This document shows positions 10,726-37,718 of a stretch of DNA of 37,936 nucleotides, piece by piece (within the stretch, counting starts at the first letter, position 1; every line of letters starts with the position of its first letter). The DNA is taken from IMG/VR virus record IMGVR_UViG_3300007735_000694, positions 1 through 37,936 of that record. One strand, written 5' to 3'. This DNA comes from a virus. The notes under the pieces were generated by a model. That model saw only the letters and a list, made by a program, of their open reading frames with translations. It was not told the origin of the DNA and did no database searches. Made by a program: the position numbers and the translations under genes.

Positions 10726-13700
10726 ATGCCTATCTACGAGGTCACTCAGGAAGCAACCGGAGTAACTCTTGAGCTAGAAGGCGACAGGCCCCCGACAAAA
10801 GAAGATGTCGAGCGGGCCTTCGCTTTTGCTGGCCGACAGAAGTATCCTAATGCTCCAGTTCTCCAAGCTCCGCCGAGTCTGTTTGAGCAGGCCAAGGCGT
10901 TGGCTCCTTCGTTTCTGAGGGTTGCTTCTCCTCTTGCGAATCCTCCGACTCCGCAAGATATCGCAGCCGTAGGCAGAACGATTCAGCAGATCACGGGTGG
11001 TGAACCTAAGCTTGGAATGCTTGAAGGTGCTTCTCGTATCGAGAAGGAAGGCCCGATGGCCATCCTCTCTGCTTCTCCAGAAAAGCGTGAGCAAGCTGCT
11101 GCCATCGGTCGCAGACTTGGAGAAGCTGTCAGCGAGTATACTCCGATTCCTGAATACATCACTCGCCCCGCTGGAGAGGTGACCGGACAGATTGCTGCCG
11201 ATCTCCTTTCTCCGATGAACCTGATGACCCTTGGCGTTGCCGGGGCTGCTCGTCAGGCGTCTCAGATTCCTAGGTCTGTTGCTGCTGCCGCCGAGTCGTT
11301 CGCTGAAGGTGTTGCGCCATCCGCTGTCCGTGCGTCTCAAATCGCAGATCTTCGTGCTGCGGCACAAGCGGCTGAGATTCCAGGTATCATTGAAACAGGA
11401 TTGCCTGCTGCATTGGCTCCTGAGGTTACCCGTGGTGCCGCTGAGTCTACTGGCGTTGCGTTGCAGACCATCGCAAATCCTGATGCCACTCCAGAAGAGA
11501 AGCTCAAGGCTTCGTTTGAGGCCGCGATTGGAACACTGTTCTCTGCTGGTCTTGGCGCACAAGTGGCCCGCTCGTTTGGGATGCGAGGCAAAGGCGTCAC
11601 TCAGGCCGATGTGCTTGAGAACCTTGCTTCTCGAAAACAGACAGTTGGAGAAGCAATCGGTCAGGTCAGTGGATTGATTGACCAGATGGACCGGATTGTT
11701 CCGGTTCAGGATCTCAAGACTCAGTTCCGTGAACTGATCGCCGGGATGAACCCGGACGAGCCGTTCGTCTACACTCCAGAGAAGATCGGTGAAGGTCCAC
11801 GCGCTGCTGTTGAAGGAGGAAGGCTTCCTGTTCGAGAACTGATTGATGAGACTCCTGAAACGCTTCGCACTCAGGAGCAAATCTTGGCAGACCGTCTTCG
11901 CGCCCGCGATGAACGTATTGCCGATGAAGAACAGGTTGCTCTTGAGCGTGAAGCTGCTCGTGCCGGAACTCCGCTGAGAACTGCTGAAGAGGTTCAAGCT
12001 CAACGTGCTGCTGAACGTCAGGCTTTCCGCGAACGTGCCGCCGCCATTCGGGAGGCTATTGGAAGGCGTGAGTTCACCGCTGAGGAGTTGATGCGTGGAG
12101 AGGTCGCTCCCGAAGCTCCGGTTACTGAACCTGTCAGTAGGCCACTGATCGTTCCAGAACTGGAAGCTCAACGCGCTGCTCCTCGTGAAGGAGGCATGCT
12201 TCCCCCTCGTGAGGCAGAGGTTCCTGTTGCTCCAGAAGGAACGCCTCTCAGGTCTGTTGATGATATCATTGCAGAACGTCTTCGCGCTCGTGAACAGCGT
12301 ATTGCTGCCGAGCAGGAAGCTGCTGCTACGCGCCCGTCCACTCCTCTCGAAACCGTTGAGCAGAAACTCACTCGCGCCCTCGCTCAACGCGACAAGCGTC
12401 TTGCAGCAGAGGCCGTTGCCGAGAGCCTCGAATCCGGTGCTGCTCAAGGGGAGCCAATCAGAGTCACTCGCAAGAAGGTCGAAGAAGCTATCGGTGTTGG
12501 CCGAAAGGAGGCTGGCCTACCTGTCGCTGAGCAAACCATCTTCAACGAGGTCTGGAACAAAGCGGTCGAGGAGACTCAAGGTAAGTTCCGACAGAAGGCA
12601 GAAGGCGTTGCTGAGAGGCTTGAGGGACTTCGCACCCAGGTTGAACCCGGACTCGGTGCCAACCCGTTTCCGCAGCTTATGGGTGCGGCTTGGAACGGTG
12701 CGCTGACCGTTGCTCAGGGAATCATCCGCGCTGGTGGATCAGTCGCTGACGCTGTTGCTGCTGGACTCCGTTACGCCCGCGAGAACTTCAAGGATAAGTT
12801 CGACGAGGCTGAGTTCTCGAACGAACTCACTCGCACGATTCAACGCCCCTCTGCCGTTGAAGCTCCCCCGAAGATGGAGCCTCGTGCATTTGCTGAGCGT
12901 GTTGCCGCTGCTCCTGGTGTTCCTCCTGTGATCCGAGAAGCCGTGGCAAAATCGCCTCGTGCCTCGTATTTTCCTCAGAACGTGGAGCAGGTTGTTGAGC
13001 AGGTCTCACTTGCTACTCCAGAGCAACTCAACGCAGACATTGGAAACGCCAAGTCCAACACCCGTGTTGCGTCTGGAATGGAGCTTTTCAATCGGCTCAT
13101 CAACGAAGGTCGCACTCAGGAAGCTGCAGATCTTTCTCTGAAGCTCGCAGAAAGCGGAACCACTTGGGGTCAACTGATCAACCAGTTCAAGTTGCTTAAG
13201 TCTGCATCTCGTGAAGGCGTTGTTCAGTTGGTCACGAAGTCGATGGCTGAACGAGGAAAGCAGATCACTCCCGAGCAGGCCACCAAGCTGGGTGATGCCA
13301 TGGATCAGTATCGTAGCGCGGTTGACGCCGTGAAACGCGCTGAGATCCGCATGAAGGACGCAGCAAACAAGGGCGATGTCCGCGGGCTCAAGGTCGCTTC
13401 TGGTCTGGCCGACATGGCGGACGCTCTTCGGAATGAAGCCGATGTTACGCTGAACGAACAGGTCGCTCGCATGAATCCTTCAACGGCTTCTGATCTGTTC
13501 CTTTCAATGGTTCAGGGATCTGTGATGGGTCCGATCTCCATCGTTCGTAACGTGCTTGGAAACACGATCAACATCCCGCTGCGCGAGTTGGCTGACATGA
13601 CCGCGGCTGGAATCGATTCGGCTCTGTTTGGTGGAAAGAACAATTCCTATAACATCAGGGCAAGAACGCTCAATCGCATCCAAGCTTTTGCTAAGTCACT

Positions 13701-15417
13701 GCCGGCTGCGAAGAGGGCCATTCTCAAGGGCTCTGACGCCAATCCGTATGAGCTTGGAACCGACATTGGAAACCCTCTGAACTTCCAGCGGGCATGGCGC
13801 AATCTGTTCGACGCGATGTCCGGTGAGTACAAGGATGTTCCGGTGATCCGCAATCTTGCGGAGGCTACGCTTGGTGTCGTCCCGGACATCATGCTCCGAA
13901 TGACTCAAGCCACTGACGTTCCGTTTCGGCAGGCTGAGCGGGCAAGAGTGATAACCGAGCTTGGTCGGCAGCGTGGACTGAGCGAAGCGCAGATCCGTGT
14001 GGCCAATCGTAATCCGAAGCTGATGCTCATTTCGGACGAGGCCCGTGCCGCTGGCCAACGTGGATTTACGGCTGAAGATCTCGGTCAGATTGAGTTCGAG
14101 GCTGCTCGCTCAATTTTCCAGCAGGACAATACTGCGACTCGTGCTGTGGCCGGAATCAATCGGTTCATCAAGCAGGAGGCTCCGCTGCTCTACGCTCCGT
14201 ACCGCATGGTGTCTTTGTTCCAAAAGACCCCCATCAATGTGGCTGCTGAAATATTGCAATTCACCCCTGCTGGTGTGCTTCGCAACTGGTCGAAGATGAC
14301 CCCGAAGGAGCGCAACACTGCGACTGCTCGACTTATCGTTGGAACCACTGTCGCTGGAGCTTACGCCTATCTTTATGACAAGGGTGTGATCACCCCGAAT
14401 CTCGACACTCCGGGTGAGACGAACAAGGCTCGTGAGTTGGCCAAGGCTGGCGGTGTCATGCCCCCTGGCACGATCAACACCAGTGGCCTACGCCGATTGA
14501 TCCGTGGAGAGGACCCCGCATTTCGCCCTGGTGACGAGGTGAAAGATCTGTCCGCTCTCGGGACTCACGGCGCAATTGGACTCATGGTCGGAACGACTCG
14601 ACGCATTCAAGAGCGTTCGCGCACAAGCGACCCTGATTTCTTGTCGCTCGGCAAAGGAGCGGCTCTTTCTGGCGTCAACTTCGTGATGGAGCAGCAGTTC
14701 CTGAAGGGTGTCAGCGATGTGATCAAGCTAATGTCTGAAGAGTCGGCCAATTCTCTGGACCGATTCGTTAAGAATCTCGCTGTAACTGCTGCCTCACCGA
14801 TTGCGCCAAACATCTTGGGTGCGGCCCGCAGAGCAGAGCGTGAATACCTGCCTTCCATCGGAGGAGAAGGTTTCATCAAGGACGCGATCAACGAGGTCAA
14901 TCAACGGTATGCCGCACTCGGGCTGGCCATTCCTGGAATCAAAGACCCGAATGCCATGCCGGTGCGCCGGGATCTGTGGGGAGAGGCTGTGGAGCAGACT
15001 CCGAAGGGCGAGAATCCTTGGACCTACAACTTCTTCGATGCGTGGAAGAGTCGATCGATCGATGCCGATCCGCTGAATTCTTCGATCTATCGACTCTGGC
15101 GCAGGACCGCAGACAATCAGGCGATTCCTTCGGTTCCCAATCCTGTGCTGACGTTCCACAACAAGACGTTCGAGCGCATGAATCCGGAACAGTTCGACCG
15201 CTACACCCAGCTTGTCGGATTCTACCGCCGCGGCCTCGCTGAGCGCGTCTTTACGAGCGGTCAGTTCCAGCAAGGAAACGACGATGTCCGACTCAAGCTC
15301 CTGCGTTCCGCCTATGACAAGGGCTTGGAAATCGGCAAGTACCGGTTCCTGCGAGAACTCGCAGAAAACGGCCAATCTCTGACGCTCCAGGCACCGCGGA
15401 GAGGATTCGCCGAATAA
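10726..15417 (+). CDS. Giant probable internal/ejected virion protein
   Basis: 1563 residues, the largest gene in the window. Residues 1-35 (YEVTQEATGVTLELEGDRPP, then TKEDVERAFAFAG) are the short N-terminal domain often found on very large phage virion proteins. Residues 360-590 are highly charged and helical, with duplicated phrases (LRARDERIADEEQVALEREA and RLRAREQRIAAEQEAA). Residues 920-1300 contain several hydrophobic stretches (SMVQGSVMGPISIVRNVLGN; RLIVGTTVAGAYAYLYDKGV) and YAPYRMVSLFQKTPINVAAE, which resembles segments of giant 'polyvalent' or core ejection proteins. I see no lysozyme or transglycosylase catalytic signature. The role, forming a channel or delivering DNA, is inferred from size, order and composition. 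Confidence 0.6.
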   Translation: MPIYEVTQEATGVTLELEGDRPPTKEDVERAFAFAGRQKYPNAPVLQAPPSLFEQAKALAPSFLRVASPLANPPTPQDIAAVGRTIQQITGGEPKLGMLEGASRIEKEGPMAILSASPEKREQAAAIGRRLGEAVSEYTPIPEYITRPAGEVTGQIAADLLSPMNLMTLGVAGAARQASQIPRSVAAAAESFAEGVAPSAVRASQIADLRAAAQAAEIPGIIETGLPAALAPEVTRGAAESTGVALQTIANPDATPEEKLKASFEAAIGTLFSAGLGAQVARSFGMRGKGVTQADVLENLASRKQTVGEAIGQVSGLIDQMDRIVPVQDLKTQFRELIAGMNPDEPFVYTPEKIGEGPRAAVEGGRLPVRELIDETPETLRTQEQILADRLRARDERIADEEQVALEREAARAGTPLRTAEEVQAQRAAERQAFRERAAAIREAIGRREFTAEELMRGEVAPEAPVTEPVSRPLIVPELEAQRAAPREGGMLPPREAEVPVAPEGTPLRSVDDIIAERLRAREQRIAAEQEAAATRPSTPLETVEQKLTRALAQRDKRLAAEAVAESLESGAAQGEPIRVTRKKVEEAIGVGRKEAGLPVAEQTIFNEVWNKAVEETQGKFRQKAEGVAERLEGLRTQVEPGLGANPFPQLMGAAWNGALTVAQGIIRAGGSVADAVAAGLRYARENFKDKFDEAEFSNELTRTIQRPSAVEAPPKMEPRAFAERVAAAPGVPPVIREAVAKSPRASYFPQNVEQVVEQVSLATPEQLNADIGNAKSNTRVASGMELFNRLINEGRTQEAADLSLKLAESGTTWGQLINQFKLLKSASREGVVQLVTKSMAERGKQITPEQATKLGDAMDQYRSAVDAVKRAEIRMKDAANKGDVRGLKVASGLADMADALRNEADVTLNEQVARMNPSTASDLFLSMVQGSVMGPISIVRNVLGNTINIPLRELADMTAAGIDSALFGGKNNSYNIRARTLNRIQAFAKSLPAAKRAILKGSDANPYELGTDIGNPLNFQRAWRNLFDAMSGEYKDVPVIRNLAEATLGVVPDIMLRMTQATDVPFRQAERARVITELGRQRGLSEAQIRVANRNPKLMLISDEARAAGQRGFTAEDLGQIEFEAARSIFQQDNTATRAVAGINRFIKQEAPLLYAPYRMVSLFQKTPINVAAEILQFTPAGVLRNWSKMTPKERNTATARLIVGTTVAGAYAYLYDKGVITPNLDTPGETNKARELAKAGGVMPPGTINTSGLRRLIRGEDPAFRPGDEVKDLSALGTHGAIGLMVGTTRRIQERSRTSDPDFLSLGKGAALSGVNFVMEQQFLKGVSDVIKLMSEESANSLDRFVKNLAVTAASPIAPNILGAARRAEREYLPSIGGEGFIKDAINEVNQRYAALGLAIPGIKDPNAMPVRRDLWGEAVEQTPKGENPWTYNFFDAWKSRSIDADPLNSSIYRLWRRTADNQAIPSVPNPVLTFHNKTFERMNPEQFDRYTQLVGFYRRGLAERVFTSGQFQQGNDDVRLKLLRSAYDKGLEIGKYRFLRELAENGQSLTLQAPRRGFAE

Positions 15418-16408: not shown

Positions 16409-17192
16409 CATCGTCTGCAACATGCCCGCGGAGCAGTACCATGCTACCCGCGCTCTCTCGAAGTCCGGGCTAGATCAGTTCCGTAAATCGCCTGCTCACT
16501 TCCGCGCTTGGCAGGATGGACTGATTAAGAACGAATCCAGCCCCGCGCTGGAGTTCGGCACATCGGCTCACATGGCCGTCCTTGAGCCTCACCTCTTCAT
16601 CCAGAAGTACACTAAGTTCAGCGGCGACAAGCGCACGAAGGAAGGCAAGGCCGCTTGGCAGGCCATCATCGACAGCGGCAAGACTCCGCTGAGCGAGGAC
16701 CATTGGGAATGCGTCAACGGAGTCGCAGCCGCTGTCCACGCTCACCCTGGTGCGGCTAAGCTGATCGATGCGATCAAGCCCGGACGCTTCGAGGTCTCTG
16801 CCTTCGACAACTGGATGGGTACGAAGGTCAAGGCTCGCATCGATGGACTCGGTGATGACTACATCATCGATCTAAAGACCACGCAGGATGCGTCACCGGC
16901 AGCATTCGCAAAGTCCTGCGCCCAGTTCCGATACCACGTTCAAGCCGCTTGGTATCAGACCATCACCAAGACAAGCCGCTTCGTCTTCATCGCAGTCGAG
17001 AAGGAAGCACCCTATGGCGTGGCCTGCTATGAGCTTGATCAGCAGGCCATCGATCTCGGAGTCTCGATCATCGAGGAGCAACTCCGCACGTTCAACGAGT
17101 GCCAAGCCCTCAACTCTTGGCCCTGCTACTCGTCTCAAATTGAAACCCTTTCGCTGCCCGCGTGGGCGGCGCGTCAGTCAGAACAACAATAA
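16401..17192 (+). CDS. RecE/YqaJ-like 5'-3' exonuclease (PD-(D/E)XK nuclease)
   Basis: 263 residues. The N-terminus (LSKSGLDQFRKSPAHFRAWQ) matches the opening helix of RecE-type nucleases. EFGTSAHMAVLEP (about residues 51-63) contributes a conserved His. The catalytic core is ARIDGLGDDYIIDLKTTQDA, with Asp148, Asp157 and Lys159. FRYHVQAAWYQ (about 177-186) is the Q-x-x-x-Y motif of the family. ATG 16401 lies inside the end of the RecT gene, an eight-base overlap. It would resect double-stranded ends to give 3' single strands for the annealing protein. An in-frame extension upstream would only duplicate RecT sequence in another frame and is rejected. Confidence 0.9.
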   Translation: MANIVCNMPAEQYHATRALSKSGLDQFRKSPAHFRAWQDGLIKNESSPALEFGTSAHMAVLEPHLFIQKYTKFSGDKRTKEGKAAWQAIIDSGKTPLSEDHWECVNGVAAAVHAHPGAAKLIDAIKPGRFEVSAFDNWMGTKVKARIDGLGDDYIIDLKTTQDASPAAFAKSCAQFRYHVQAAWYQTITKTSRFVFIAVEKEAPYGVACYELDQQAIDLGVSIIEEQLRTFNECQALNSWPCYSSQIETLSLPAWAARQSEQQ

Positions 17193-17214
17193 CAACGACA
17201 CACACACCAAACAC

Positions 17215-17634
17215 ATGACATTCAAAGTAGATCGTTCCCAAGCAGAAGTGAAACCGTTCGCCGGCCCCGGCGAATACACAGTCGTCATCTCGGCCTGCAA
17301 AGATGATGGTCTGGACAAGAGCGGAAACTCCATCGTCAGCCTCCGCTACAAGGGGCCGAGCGGTGAGGTCCTCAGCGATCGGTTCGTATTGAAGGACACC
17401 ATGATGTGGCGTCTTCAGGCCCTGATCTCTGCGACCGAGGCTAACATCGATGACGGTGCCGAGTTCGATTTTAGCGTGAGCGGAGCCTTCTATCGTTTCC
17501 TCCAGGGCTTCGTCGGGCTGTCGCTCGTGATCACCATCGAGGAGGAGAAGTACACCGACAAGAACGGTCAGGAGCAGACCGCGCTCCGCGTCCGCCGCAT
17601 GAAGAAGGTGCCGTCCGACAACGACGGTCTCTGA
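17215..17634 (+). CDS. Putative single-stranded DNA-binding protein
   Basis: 139 residues from ATG 17215. Beta-rich sequence (GEYTVVISACKDDGLDKSGN; IVSLRYKGPSGEVLSDRFVL) is followed by a helical segment (MMWRLQALISATEANIDDGA) and a final strand pair (GLSLVITIEEEKYTDKNGQE; RVRRMKKVP). This is the arrangement of phage SSB-like proteins of the DUF669 type, an OB-fold with charged ends. It follows the nuclease gene after a 22-base A/C-rich leader that contains CAACGACA and no Shine-Dalgarno, and is followed by a strong terminator. Function is inferred from fold pattern and module context. Confidence 0.65.
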   Translation: MTFKVDRSQAEVKPFAGPGEYTVVISACKDDGLDKSGNSIVSLRYKGPSGEVLSDRFVLKDTMMWRLQALISATEANIDDGAEFDFSVSGAFYRFLQGFVGLSLVITIEEEKYTDKNGQEQTALRVRRMKKVPSDNDGL

Positions 17635-17715: not shown

Positions 17716-19206
17716 ATGCAACTGAGACCGTACCAAGAAGAGTGTGTGGGTCAAGTCTTCCAGTCTTGGGAAGATTATCAACGATCGCTGATCGTCATCC
17801 CCACTGGTGGCGGGAAGACCATCGTCTTCGCTCACATAGCCAATCGCGCCCAGGGTCGCACCCTTATCATCGCGCACCGCGAAGAACTCCTTCAGCAGGC
17901 CAAGGACAAGATCAAGCAGGCCGTCGGTCGAGACGCTGCACTCGAACGCGCTGAGGACTTCGCTGGTCAAGAGTTCCGTATCGTCGTCGGATCCATTCAA
18001 ACCCTTCTCCGCCGACACAATCGGTTCGCTCCAGATTACTTCACCAACATCATCATCGACGAGGCGCACCACGTTGCAGCCGACTCGTACCAGAGCGTCC
18101 TAAGCCACTTTCCGCAGGCCAATATCCTCGGGGTCACAGCAACCCCAGATCGCTCCGATAAGAAGCAGCTCGGGTCATTCTTCGAGAACGTGGCCTACGA
18201 GGTCACACTCCTCGATCTCATCAAGCAGGGCTATCTCGTGCCCATCAAGGCCCGTGTCTGCGATGTCTCCATCGATCTCACCAAGGTCAAGTTCCACGCT
18301 GGCGACTTCGATGCCAATGACACCGCTCACGCCATCGAGCCGTACCTCGAACGCATAGCAGCCCAGATCAAGCAGTTCGGCGGGAAGAAGACCATCGTGT
18401 TCCTACCGCTCATCGCCACATCGGAAAAGATGACCTCCATCTGCCGCGCCATCGGACTCGATGCCGAGCACGTGGATGGCACCAGCACCGATCGCAAGGA
18501 GATCCTCAAGCGGTTCGCCCAGAAGCAGCGCGGAGTCCTCTGCAATGCCATGCTGCTGACCGAGGGGTACGATGAGCCCAGCATCGACACCATCGTCTGC
18601 CTGCGACCCACCAGAAGCCGCTCGCTCTACACCCAGATGATCGGTCGCGGAACCCGGCTACATGCCGGCAAGACGCATCTCACCATCCTCGACTTCCTGT
18701 GGATGACCGGACGCCACAAGCTCGTGCGTCCCACGCGCCTCATCTCCCAGGATGAGATCGGAGAAATCGCTGATGAACTCATAGCCAAGCAGGGCGAGTT
18801 CGATCTCCAGGAGGTCGTCAACGACGCGGTGATCCAGCGCGAGAACGCGTTGGCCAAGCAGTTGGCTCAGAAGAAGAAGCTGTCCGGTAAGACCATCGAT
18901 CCGCTAGAGTTCGCCCTGTCGATCCACGACACAACGATGGCCGACTGGGAACCGACCATGCCGTGGCACTCGCAGCCGGTCACTGAATCGCAGGCCAAGA
19001 CACTCAAGAGCTTCGGGTTCTCCACAGACTCGATCACCTGCCGCGGTCAGGCCAGCGCGGTGCTGGAGCGTGTGATGAATCGAGCGGCCCTCAAGCTCGC
19101 CACACCCAAGCAGGTTCGCTGTCTGACCCGTTTCGGAATCAAGAACGCGCACACATGGAAGTTCGATGCGGCATCCCAATTCCTCTCGAAGGCATTCAAA
19201 CGATGA
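17716..19206 (+). CDS. Superfamily 2 DNA helicase
   Basis: 496 residues. Motifs in order: Q-motif region LRPYQEECVG near the start, Walker A PTGGGKT (29-35), AHREELLQQA (Ia), DEAH (115-118), TATPDR (III, 141-146), LTEGYDEP (V, about 281-288) and QMIGRGTR (VI, 307-314). The C-terminal 120 residues carry two similar helix-hairpin-like units (SQAKTLKSFGFSTDSITCRG and TPKQVRCLTRFGIKNAHTWK) that probably bind DNA. It would unwind or remodel DNA during phage replication or recombination. The leader is A/C-rich with CAACGACA and no Shine-Dalgarno; the next gene overlaps by four bases. Confidence 0.92.
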   Translation: MQLRPYQEECVGQVFQSWEDYQRSLIVIPTGGGKTIVFAHIANRAQGRTLIIAHREELLQQAKDKIKQAVGRDAALERAEDFAGQEFRIVVGSIQTLLRRHNRFAPDYFTNIIIDEAHHVAADSYQSVLSHFPQANILGVTATPDRSDKKQLGSFFENVAYEVTLLDLIKQGYLVPIKARVCDVSIDLTKVKFHAGDFDANDTAHAIEPYLERIAAQIKQFGGKKTIVFLPLIATSEKMTSICRAIGLDAEHVDGTSTDRKEILKRFAQKQRGVLCNAMLLTEGYDEPSIDTIVCLRPTRSRSLYTQMIGRGTRLHAGKTHLTILDFLWMTGRHKLVRPTRLISQDEIGEIADELIAKQGEFDLQEVVNDAVIQRENALAKQLAQKKKLSGKTIDPLEFALSIHDTTMADWEPTMPWHSQPVTESQAKTLKSFGFSTDSITCRGQASAVLERVMNRAALKLATPKQVRCLTRFGIKNAHTWKFDAASQFLSKAFKR

Positions 19207-29284: not shown

Positions 29285-29968
29285 TCAGGCACCGATAAAG
29301 TGACGTTTTCCGGTCCCGTGGGCAGGAATGAAAACGGCCCGTTGCCCAGAACGGGAGCCTGCGCATGCTAGGCAATCGGAACAGGGTGTCCCGATTCGAT
29401 CGCTGGCGCATAGGGTTTCCATGGAATGATGGTCTAGATCCGGGGTCACACGGAAGGTTGACCAGCCCATCGATCGGGCGATCACAAGCTCGGCGGTAGT
29501 GTCGACGCTGGCCATCAGCAATTGACGCCAAGGTTGGAGACTGGGCTTGCGCCACTGGTGCGTATAGCCTGTCCAACCAGAAGCGACGCCGGCGATGGCA
29601 AGGGCGAGACTTAGGGGCAAGTGTGTCGGGTCTCCGTAGGCTCCGAATCTCACCTTGCGGCCCGTGAAAACGGAAACAGAGGGTAAGGGCAAATAGGCTC
29701 CGGAACGCCAAGCTCTCCAAATACCCAATGGGGCTTGGCTGACGTTGACGTAACAGGAACGGGAGCCCCCGGAGCCATCGCCACGGTGTCAACAGTTTCC
29801 GCAAATCAAACGATCCAAGCCCGATTTGATCGCTTCGACGGGATCGACCGCTTTGCAGAAAATCCAGATCTGGATCATGTCTCCGGTTTTCCGGTTATCG
29901 CTGGGATTGGAAAAGCCGGTCGCGATGATCACTCGATGGGCGTCTTCATGGAGAATGAAGCCATTCAC
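29285..29968 (-). pseudogene. Conserved phage protein (RFGAYGDP / TGYTHQW family) interrupted by one in-frame UGA
   Basis: 228 codons read from GTG 29968 to the stop at 29285, with a single TGA at 29791-29789 (codon 60). Both sides belong to one conserved protein: before it ATGFSNPSDNRKTGDMIQIW and GLDRLICGNC; after it HRGDGSGGSRSCYVNVSQAP, then VRFGAYGDPTHLPLSLALAI, WTGYTHQW, LLMASVDT and GWSTFRVTPD. GGAGG stands six bases before the GTG, which also overlaps the upstream stop (GTGA). Family function is unknown. A CGA (Arg) to TGA change would explain it in one step. Downstream codons show no decay, so it is either very recent, a variant in the population, or read through. An in-frame restart after the stop (TTG at 29728) would give 147 residues. 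Confidence 0.75.
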
Positions 29969-30219
29969 AGGGCACCTCCGTAGATTTCACGCATAATCGA
30001 ACGCAAGGCAGTGTCGATGTGCGTATCGTCAAGGTACGCGTAAAGGTCAGACATGATTCCGTCACAACCGGAGGCGCGGAAAGCATCCCAACGGAGACGC
30101 TTTTCAATATCCTTGGCCTTTCCCTCAGATTTCAGGAAGTCACGATGAGCGGAAAGGCGACCAGCAAGCGGAAGAATCGCCGAACGAATCGCGGAGTAAT
30201 GCGACGGAGTGATTTTCAC
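29965..30219 (-). CDS. Small conserved phage protein
   Basis: 84 residues from GTG at 30219, overlapping the upstream stop (GTGA). The sequence SHYSAIRSAILPLAGRLSAH, KAKDIEKRLRWDAFRASG, then DLYAYLDDTHIDTALRSIMR is an all-helical pattern that I know from uncharacterised phage proteins (the K-D-I-x-K-R-x-R-W-D motif and L-Y-A-Y-L-x-D-x-H-I-D-T-A-L). The end, GGAL, gives GGTGCCCTGTGA, the same junction as at the upstream gene's end. Confidence 0.7.
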   Translation of the reverse strand: MKITPSHYSAIRSAILPLAGRLSAHRDFLKSEGKAKDIEKRLRWDAFRASGCDGIMSDLYAYLDDTHIDTALRSIMREIYGGAL

Positions 30220-36569: not shown

Positions 36570-37718
36570 ATGCCAGTTACTACTTCAACCACGCTCACGA
36601 GCCAGTTCCAGAACTACTTCAGCAAGGAGCTGCTCTCCATCGTTCAGCAGGAGACCATCCTGGATCAGTTCGCCATGAAGGCTCCGATCCCCAAGAACAA
36701 TGGTAACAAGGCCATCTCGATGTTCCGTTTCGGACCGCCGAGCATTGGCAGTGTCCAGTCTCTTGCTGAGGGTACTGCGATCAGCTCCGCCAACTACCGC
36801 GCTCTGGCCCTCAACAGCCTGAGCAAGTCGCTGGCTCAGTACGGTCAGGTCATCGGTTTGACCGACATCCTCCGCGCCACCGACCTGTTCAACAGCCTCC
36901 AGCAGGCCACCAAGACCTCCGGTCTGGACATGGCCCTCTGGGTTGACTCGGTGATCCGCAACGTGCTGATCGGCTCCAACCTCACCGCCAGCGGTTCCTC
37001 CATCGGTTCCGCCGCCGAGGGTGGTGGTACGTTCGATAACTCGGACGCCGTGAACACCATCGCCAGCTCCGGTGGCGTGAAGGTCTACGGTAACCCCGCC
37101 ACGCTGACCACGCAGAGCTTCTCTGCGCTGAATAGCGACACGACTGCTGCCAACACCACGATGACGGCCTCGGCTGTCCTCGATTCCATGACCCGCCTGA
37201 AGCGCAACCGCGCCCCGCTGATCAACGGCGGCTACGTCCTCGCCACCGATCCTCGTGTGGCCCGTGACCTCATGCGCGACAGCGACTGGTTGAACGCCTC
37301 GAACTACGGCAACAAGGGCCAGCCGTTCTACAAGGGCGAGGTCGGCTCCATCTACGGTTGCCGCGTCGTCACCCAGACCAACTCGTTCGTCAGCACCGGT
37401 TCCGGTACCGCTGCCGATGAGTTCGTGTATCAGGCTTCCGCCGCGGGTGGTGGTCTGGCCGCTGGCAAGGACATCATCGCCTCGTTCTTCTTCGGCAACG
37501 AGTCGTTCGGTATCCCTGCTCTAACCGGTGATGATCCGTTGTCCCCGCGCATCGTGATCACCGACACCCCCGACAAGTCGGATCCGTTGAACCAGCTCGT
37601 CACCGTCGGCGTGAAGCTGTACTTCGCCGCCCTGCGTCTGGCCGCTGGTAACACCGGTTCCACCGGTAACCCGGTGTGGTACTTGGTGCATCGGACGAAG
37701 ACCTCGACCACGCTGTAA
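36570..37718 (+). CDS. Major capsid protein (N4-gp56-like family)
   Basis: 382 residues. The N-terminus SQFQNYFSKELLSIVQQETI, then LDQFAMKAPIPKNNGNKAIS with FRFGPPSIGSVQSLAEGTAI, matches N4-gp56-type capsid proteins ('...L-x-x-x-x-x-x-L-x-x-Q-F-x-x-K-x-P-I-P-K-x-x-G'). Later segments LGQ-like SLAQYGQVIGLTDILRATDL, MTRLKRNRAPLINGGYVLAT and YGCRVVTQTNSFV are consistent with HK97-type domains. Position after the scaffold confirms it. A hairpin follows at 37767. Confidence 0.9.
   Translation: MPVTTSTTLTSQFQNYFSKELLSIVQQETILDQFAMKAPIPKNNGNKAISMFRFGPPSIGSVQSLAEGTAISSANYRALALNSLSKSLAQYGQVIGLTDILRATDLFNSLQQATKTSGLDMALWVDSVIRNVLIGSNLTASGSSIGSAAEGGGTFDNSDAVNTIASSGGVKVYGNPATLTTQSFSALNSDTTAANTTMTASAVLDSMTRLKRNRAPLINGGYVLATDPRVARDLMRDSDWLNASNYGNKGQPFYKGEVGSIYGCRVVTQTNSFVSTGSGTAADEFVYQASAAGGGLAAGKDIIASFFFGNESFGIPALTGDDPLSPRIVITDTPDKSDPLNQLVTVGVKLYFAALRLAAGNTGSTGNPVWYLVHRTKTSTTL

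Follow-up and report, generated by a model that had tools for sequence, protein, structure and literature searches.

The DNA analysed here, a viral stretch of 37,936 nucleotides (the window), carries on its minus strand a conserved phage gene that is interrupted by one in-frame TGA. Comparison with related sequences indicates that this stop is very probably a CGA-to-TGA substitution private to one contig: a nonsense mutation, or else a minority variant or erroneous base that entered the metagenome consensus. The features of the locus are:

29285-29968, minus strand: DUF7227-like / phrog_2554 gene with one internal TGA; 228 codons, both the internal and the closing stop included; PHROGs E 9e-64; 80 uninterrupted IMG/VR relatives
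29789-29791, minus strand: TGA in frame at codon 60, where the closest relatives have CGA
29792-29968, minus strand: fragment of 59 codons, predicted on termination at the TGA; of the invariant cysteines only Cys56 and Cys59
29288-29788, minus strand: 167 codons 3' of the stop; same constraint kept; the other five invariant cysteines; first in-frame start TTG 29728
29741-29780, minus strand: GC-rich region 3' of the TGA, containing a short hairpin; no stronger than shuffled sequence

The frame opens at GTG 29968, runs through 59 codons to the TGA at 29791-29789 and continues for another 167 codons before it closes with TGA at 29287-29285. An initial annotation of this DNA had given these coordinates and codon counts exactly, and the GGAGG upstream of GTG 29968 and the translational coupling that it reported were both found, the latter as a GTGA overlap with ORF 29965-30219. 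The read-through protein, used as query, matched 147 phage records, in each of them at a single place and over 80% or more of the query length. Each half aligns over its full length with uninterrupted single proteins of relatives, so that the two belong to one gene, as the initial annotation had it, and not to two separate ones; the converse case, in which relatives would lack the first part of the protein, did not apply, the relatives holding one full gene.

The read-through protein matched the phrog_2554 profile with its residues 11-224 (E 9.2e-64). No Pfam hit was obtained with the window protein or with that of relative L001, and the gathering cut-off of DUF7227 (PF23872) was not reached (relative L124, 23.7 bits versus a cut-off of 27); the matches of a fold search among viral proteins included one named DUF7227. 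The fold search in the PDB revealed no credible relative and no close solved structure, and the PDB sequence search gave one match only, which was weak (E 0.054). Among annotated phrog_2554 / DUF7227-like proteins, gp74 of Mycobacterium phage RhynO and gp064c of Caulobacter phage S2B are homologous to the window protein over 93-98% with 42-46% identity, but both are encoded by a single uninterrupted gene, the internal stop being found only in the window gene. Seven cysteines (56, 59, 72, 187, 196, 199 and 202 in L001 numbering) are invariant in 39 aligned relatives, which suggests a putative metal site. In a model of L001 built from the alignment of relatives (mean pLDDT 85), a loop that is poorly predicted begins at the position of the stop.

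Codon 60 was compared in the best 80 relatives in IMG/VR, whose proteins are 74-86% identical to that of the window. The gene was uninterrupted in all 80, with a sense codon at this position: GTC in 51, ATG in 12, CGA and ATC in four each, AGA in three, and CGG, CGC and GTG in two each. The encoded residue was therefore Val in 53, Met in 12, Arg in 11 and Ile in four, and neither a stop nor Cys was observed; distant homologues have P, K or M in this column. The carriers of CGA (L001, L002, L003 and L008) comprise the three relatives nearest in protein sequence and the one nearest in DNA, and so the window differs from them by one C>T transition. This comparison had been proposed in the initial annotation, together with the view that Arg (CGA) would be natural at the site; indeed, CGA is the codon of the closest relatives, although the residue is not conserved and Val is the commonest. 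Further, IMG/VR was searched with a degenerate motif (CG-x-C-stop-HRG with TGA, TAG or TAA), the CGA version serving as comparison. The CGA version was found in 11 contigs; TGA and TAA gave no match and TAG no homologue, its lone hit (L136) being fortuitous and in an unrelated frame. Since no stop was present in the 80 relatives and no stop-bearing homologue was recovered by the motif search, the stop is not a conserved feature. The exact 40-mer of the window with C or T at the site was found in no other contig, so polymorphism is not visible, and a close clade nearer than the relatives compared may share the stop.

Selection was then compared on both sides of the stop. Between the window and ten relatives, pN/pS was 0.14-0.29 before and 0.15-0.25 after the stop, and 66 control pairs among the relatives averaged 0.20 and 0.19, respectively. 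The equally low values imply a young change, an error, or read-through; the last is the least likely of the three, because the stop is absent from all relatives and no recoding signal was detected. Synonymous differences between the window and its relatives are large (pS ~0.6-0.9), which points to a long branch leading to the window, most of which was probably under normal constraint. Relaxed selection was considered and rejected: the window departs from three conserved positions as compared with 0-4 in 58 relative lineages, a value towards the upper limit of the range yet unexceptional.

UGA is a normal stop in this DNA. The 23 window genes examined end in TGA (11), TAA (9) or TAG (3), and a survey of the window against nine related contigs, restricted to sense genes, revealed no interior stop in any conserved sense frame of the window other than codon 60; a six-frame version of the survey mixed in antisense and over-extended frames. 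In the nine related contigs, six interior stops were flagged in ~63,000 aligned residues of 24 genes. Five of them fall within a mechanical ORF (16888-17634), the beginning of which overlaps with a second gene; the sixth is near the C-terminus of one protein in L110. Interior stops are thus rare in this phage group, yet a single one in one contig requires no special mechanism. With UGA reassigned, UGA would be expected in-frame in many genes and unused as a stop; the window has one interior UGA and 11 of 23 genes ending in TGA, which bears out the earlier judgement that general reassignment is unlikely. Neither tRNA genes, including suppressor tRNA and tRNA-Sec, nor Rfam families were found in the window. 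The CGGG-GGCT-CCCG hairpin described in the initial annotation is present and begins 17 nt 3' of the TGA, but its value as a hint of recoding did not hold up: the region downstream of the TGA folds no better than shuffled sequences (z +0.34, +0.19 and -0.61), no decoding element was detected in the window, and no relative has a stop or Cys at the site.

These data bear on the other explanations of the stop. Tolerated or regulatory read-through, in which decoding of the UGA by a near-cognate tRNA, as Trp or a different residue, yields some full-length protein, is compatible with the conservation of the part 3' of the stop and with the variability of codon 60 (V, M, R, I), where an inserted residue could be tolerated. 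TGA followed by C is a leaky stop context, and a C does follow directly here. Programmed read-through, however, goes with a stop conserved among homologues, and TGA at codon 60 was found in none of the 80 relatives and in none of the contigs matched by the IMG/VR motif scan; since, in addition, UGA serves as a normal stop, there is no suppressor tRNA in the window and no unusual structure lies near the TGA, we regard read-through as unlikely. Less likely still is a combined form, in which read-through at the variable site would keep the protein functional while the stop lowers its dose, and in which the change would also leave no GTCGAC palindrome, a type of site avoided by the phage lineage. 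If the 3' part were a separate gene, it could begin as an in-frame piece at TTG 29728, the earliest in-frame start codon beyond the stop, or in an alternative 188-codon frame starting at 29804. This frame, however, matches no family and stays open as far as the end of the gene in just two of the 80 relatives; neither a ribosome-binding site nor a Shine-Dalgarno sequence is visible at TTG 29728; and all relatives, including annotated isolates, have a single gene. Two genes are therefore very improbable, and for the ancestral gene this arrangement is already refuted. Selenocysteine insertion is the least probable of all and hardly credible: the UGA adjoins a CxxC pair and is followed by the hairpin at 17 nt, but the hairpin is weak, tRNA-Sec and any other Rfam match are missing from the window, and no homologue has Cys in the UGA column, as would be expected for a Sec-for-Cys replacement.

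Hexamer palindromes are strongly avoided in the window (1-37936), with 342 observed versus 610 expected from dinucleotides; CGCGCG and GCGCGC are absent, and avoidance of 6-bp palindromes is common to nine relatives. GTCGAC occurs once in the window versus 14 expected. Restriction-site avoidance as driver of the C>T change was rejected, since hexamer palindromes are rare in general and not GTCGAC alone, since L002 and L008 retain GTCGAC at the site, and since a silent change of the Cys codon would remove the palindrome too; at most, such avoidance is a possible bias.

Other loci of the window differ in their relationships. The helicase-like gene (ResIII/DEAD, 17716-19206) shares 99% identity with a single contig among the nine related ones and lacks a comparable match in the other eight, while many other genes are 60-90% identical; judged by these identities, it is a recent exchange. 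The major head protein (36570-37718) is up to 99.7% identical to a relative, compared with at most 86% for the interrupted gene, and the genome is therefore mosaic. A 1563-residue protein (10726-15417) has no PHROGs or Pfam match; conserved counterparts occur on six or more pieces of related contigs. One related record (G004; L093 and L104) has two terminase matches at opposite contig ends, a full one with 92% identity to the window and a partial one with 86%, and is possibly a chimeric or wrapped assembly.

In sum, a single C>T transition at codon 60 would have converted an Arg codon (CGA) to TGA in an otherwise intact phage gene, arising as a recent nonsense mutation in the phage or as a minority variant or base error of the metagenome consensus. 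If the stop is real, translation would end after 59 residues and the protein would be lost, since the resulting piece has two of the seven invariant cysteines and there is no good restart site downstream. The base difference, its absence from relatives and the intact constraint on both sides were seen directly, and from these we infer recent age and loss of function; a recent CGA-to-TGA change had also been suggested in the initial annotation, and it agrees with the four CGA-bearing relatives, which include the closest ones. Counting against this explanation is the downstream part, which is free of decay; continued expression by read-through would give the same. According to a published survey (Belinky et al. 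2021, PMC7918605), in-frame stops occur widely in prokaryotic genes, do not persist for long, and are found in excess in genes of phages and transposons. The private nonsense substitutions described there share with the window a single in-frame stop, conserved flanks, a nonsynonymous/synonymous ratio below 1 and a short life, but that survey centred on stops common to at least two genomes, whereas the stop described here comes from one contig only. The event is ordinary, and the lesson is that relatives should be checked before the stop codon of one contig is taken for recoding. If real, the stop suggests that loss of this conserved phage gene is possible, at least temporarily.
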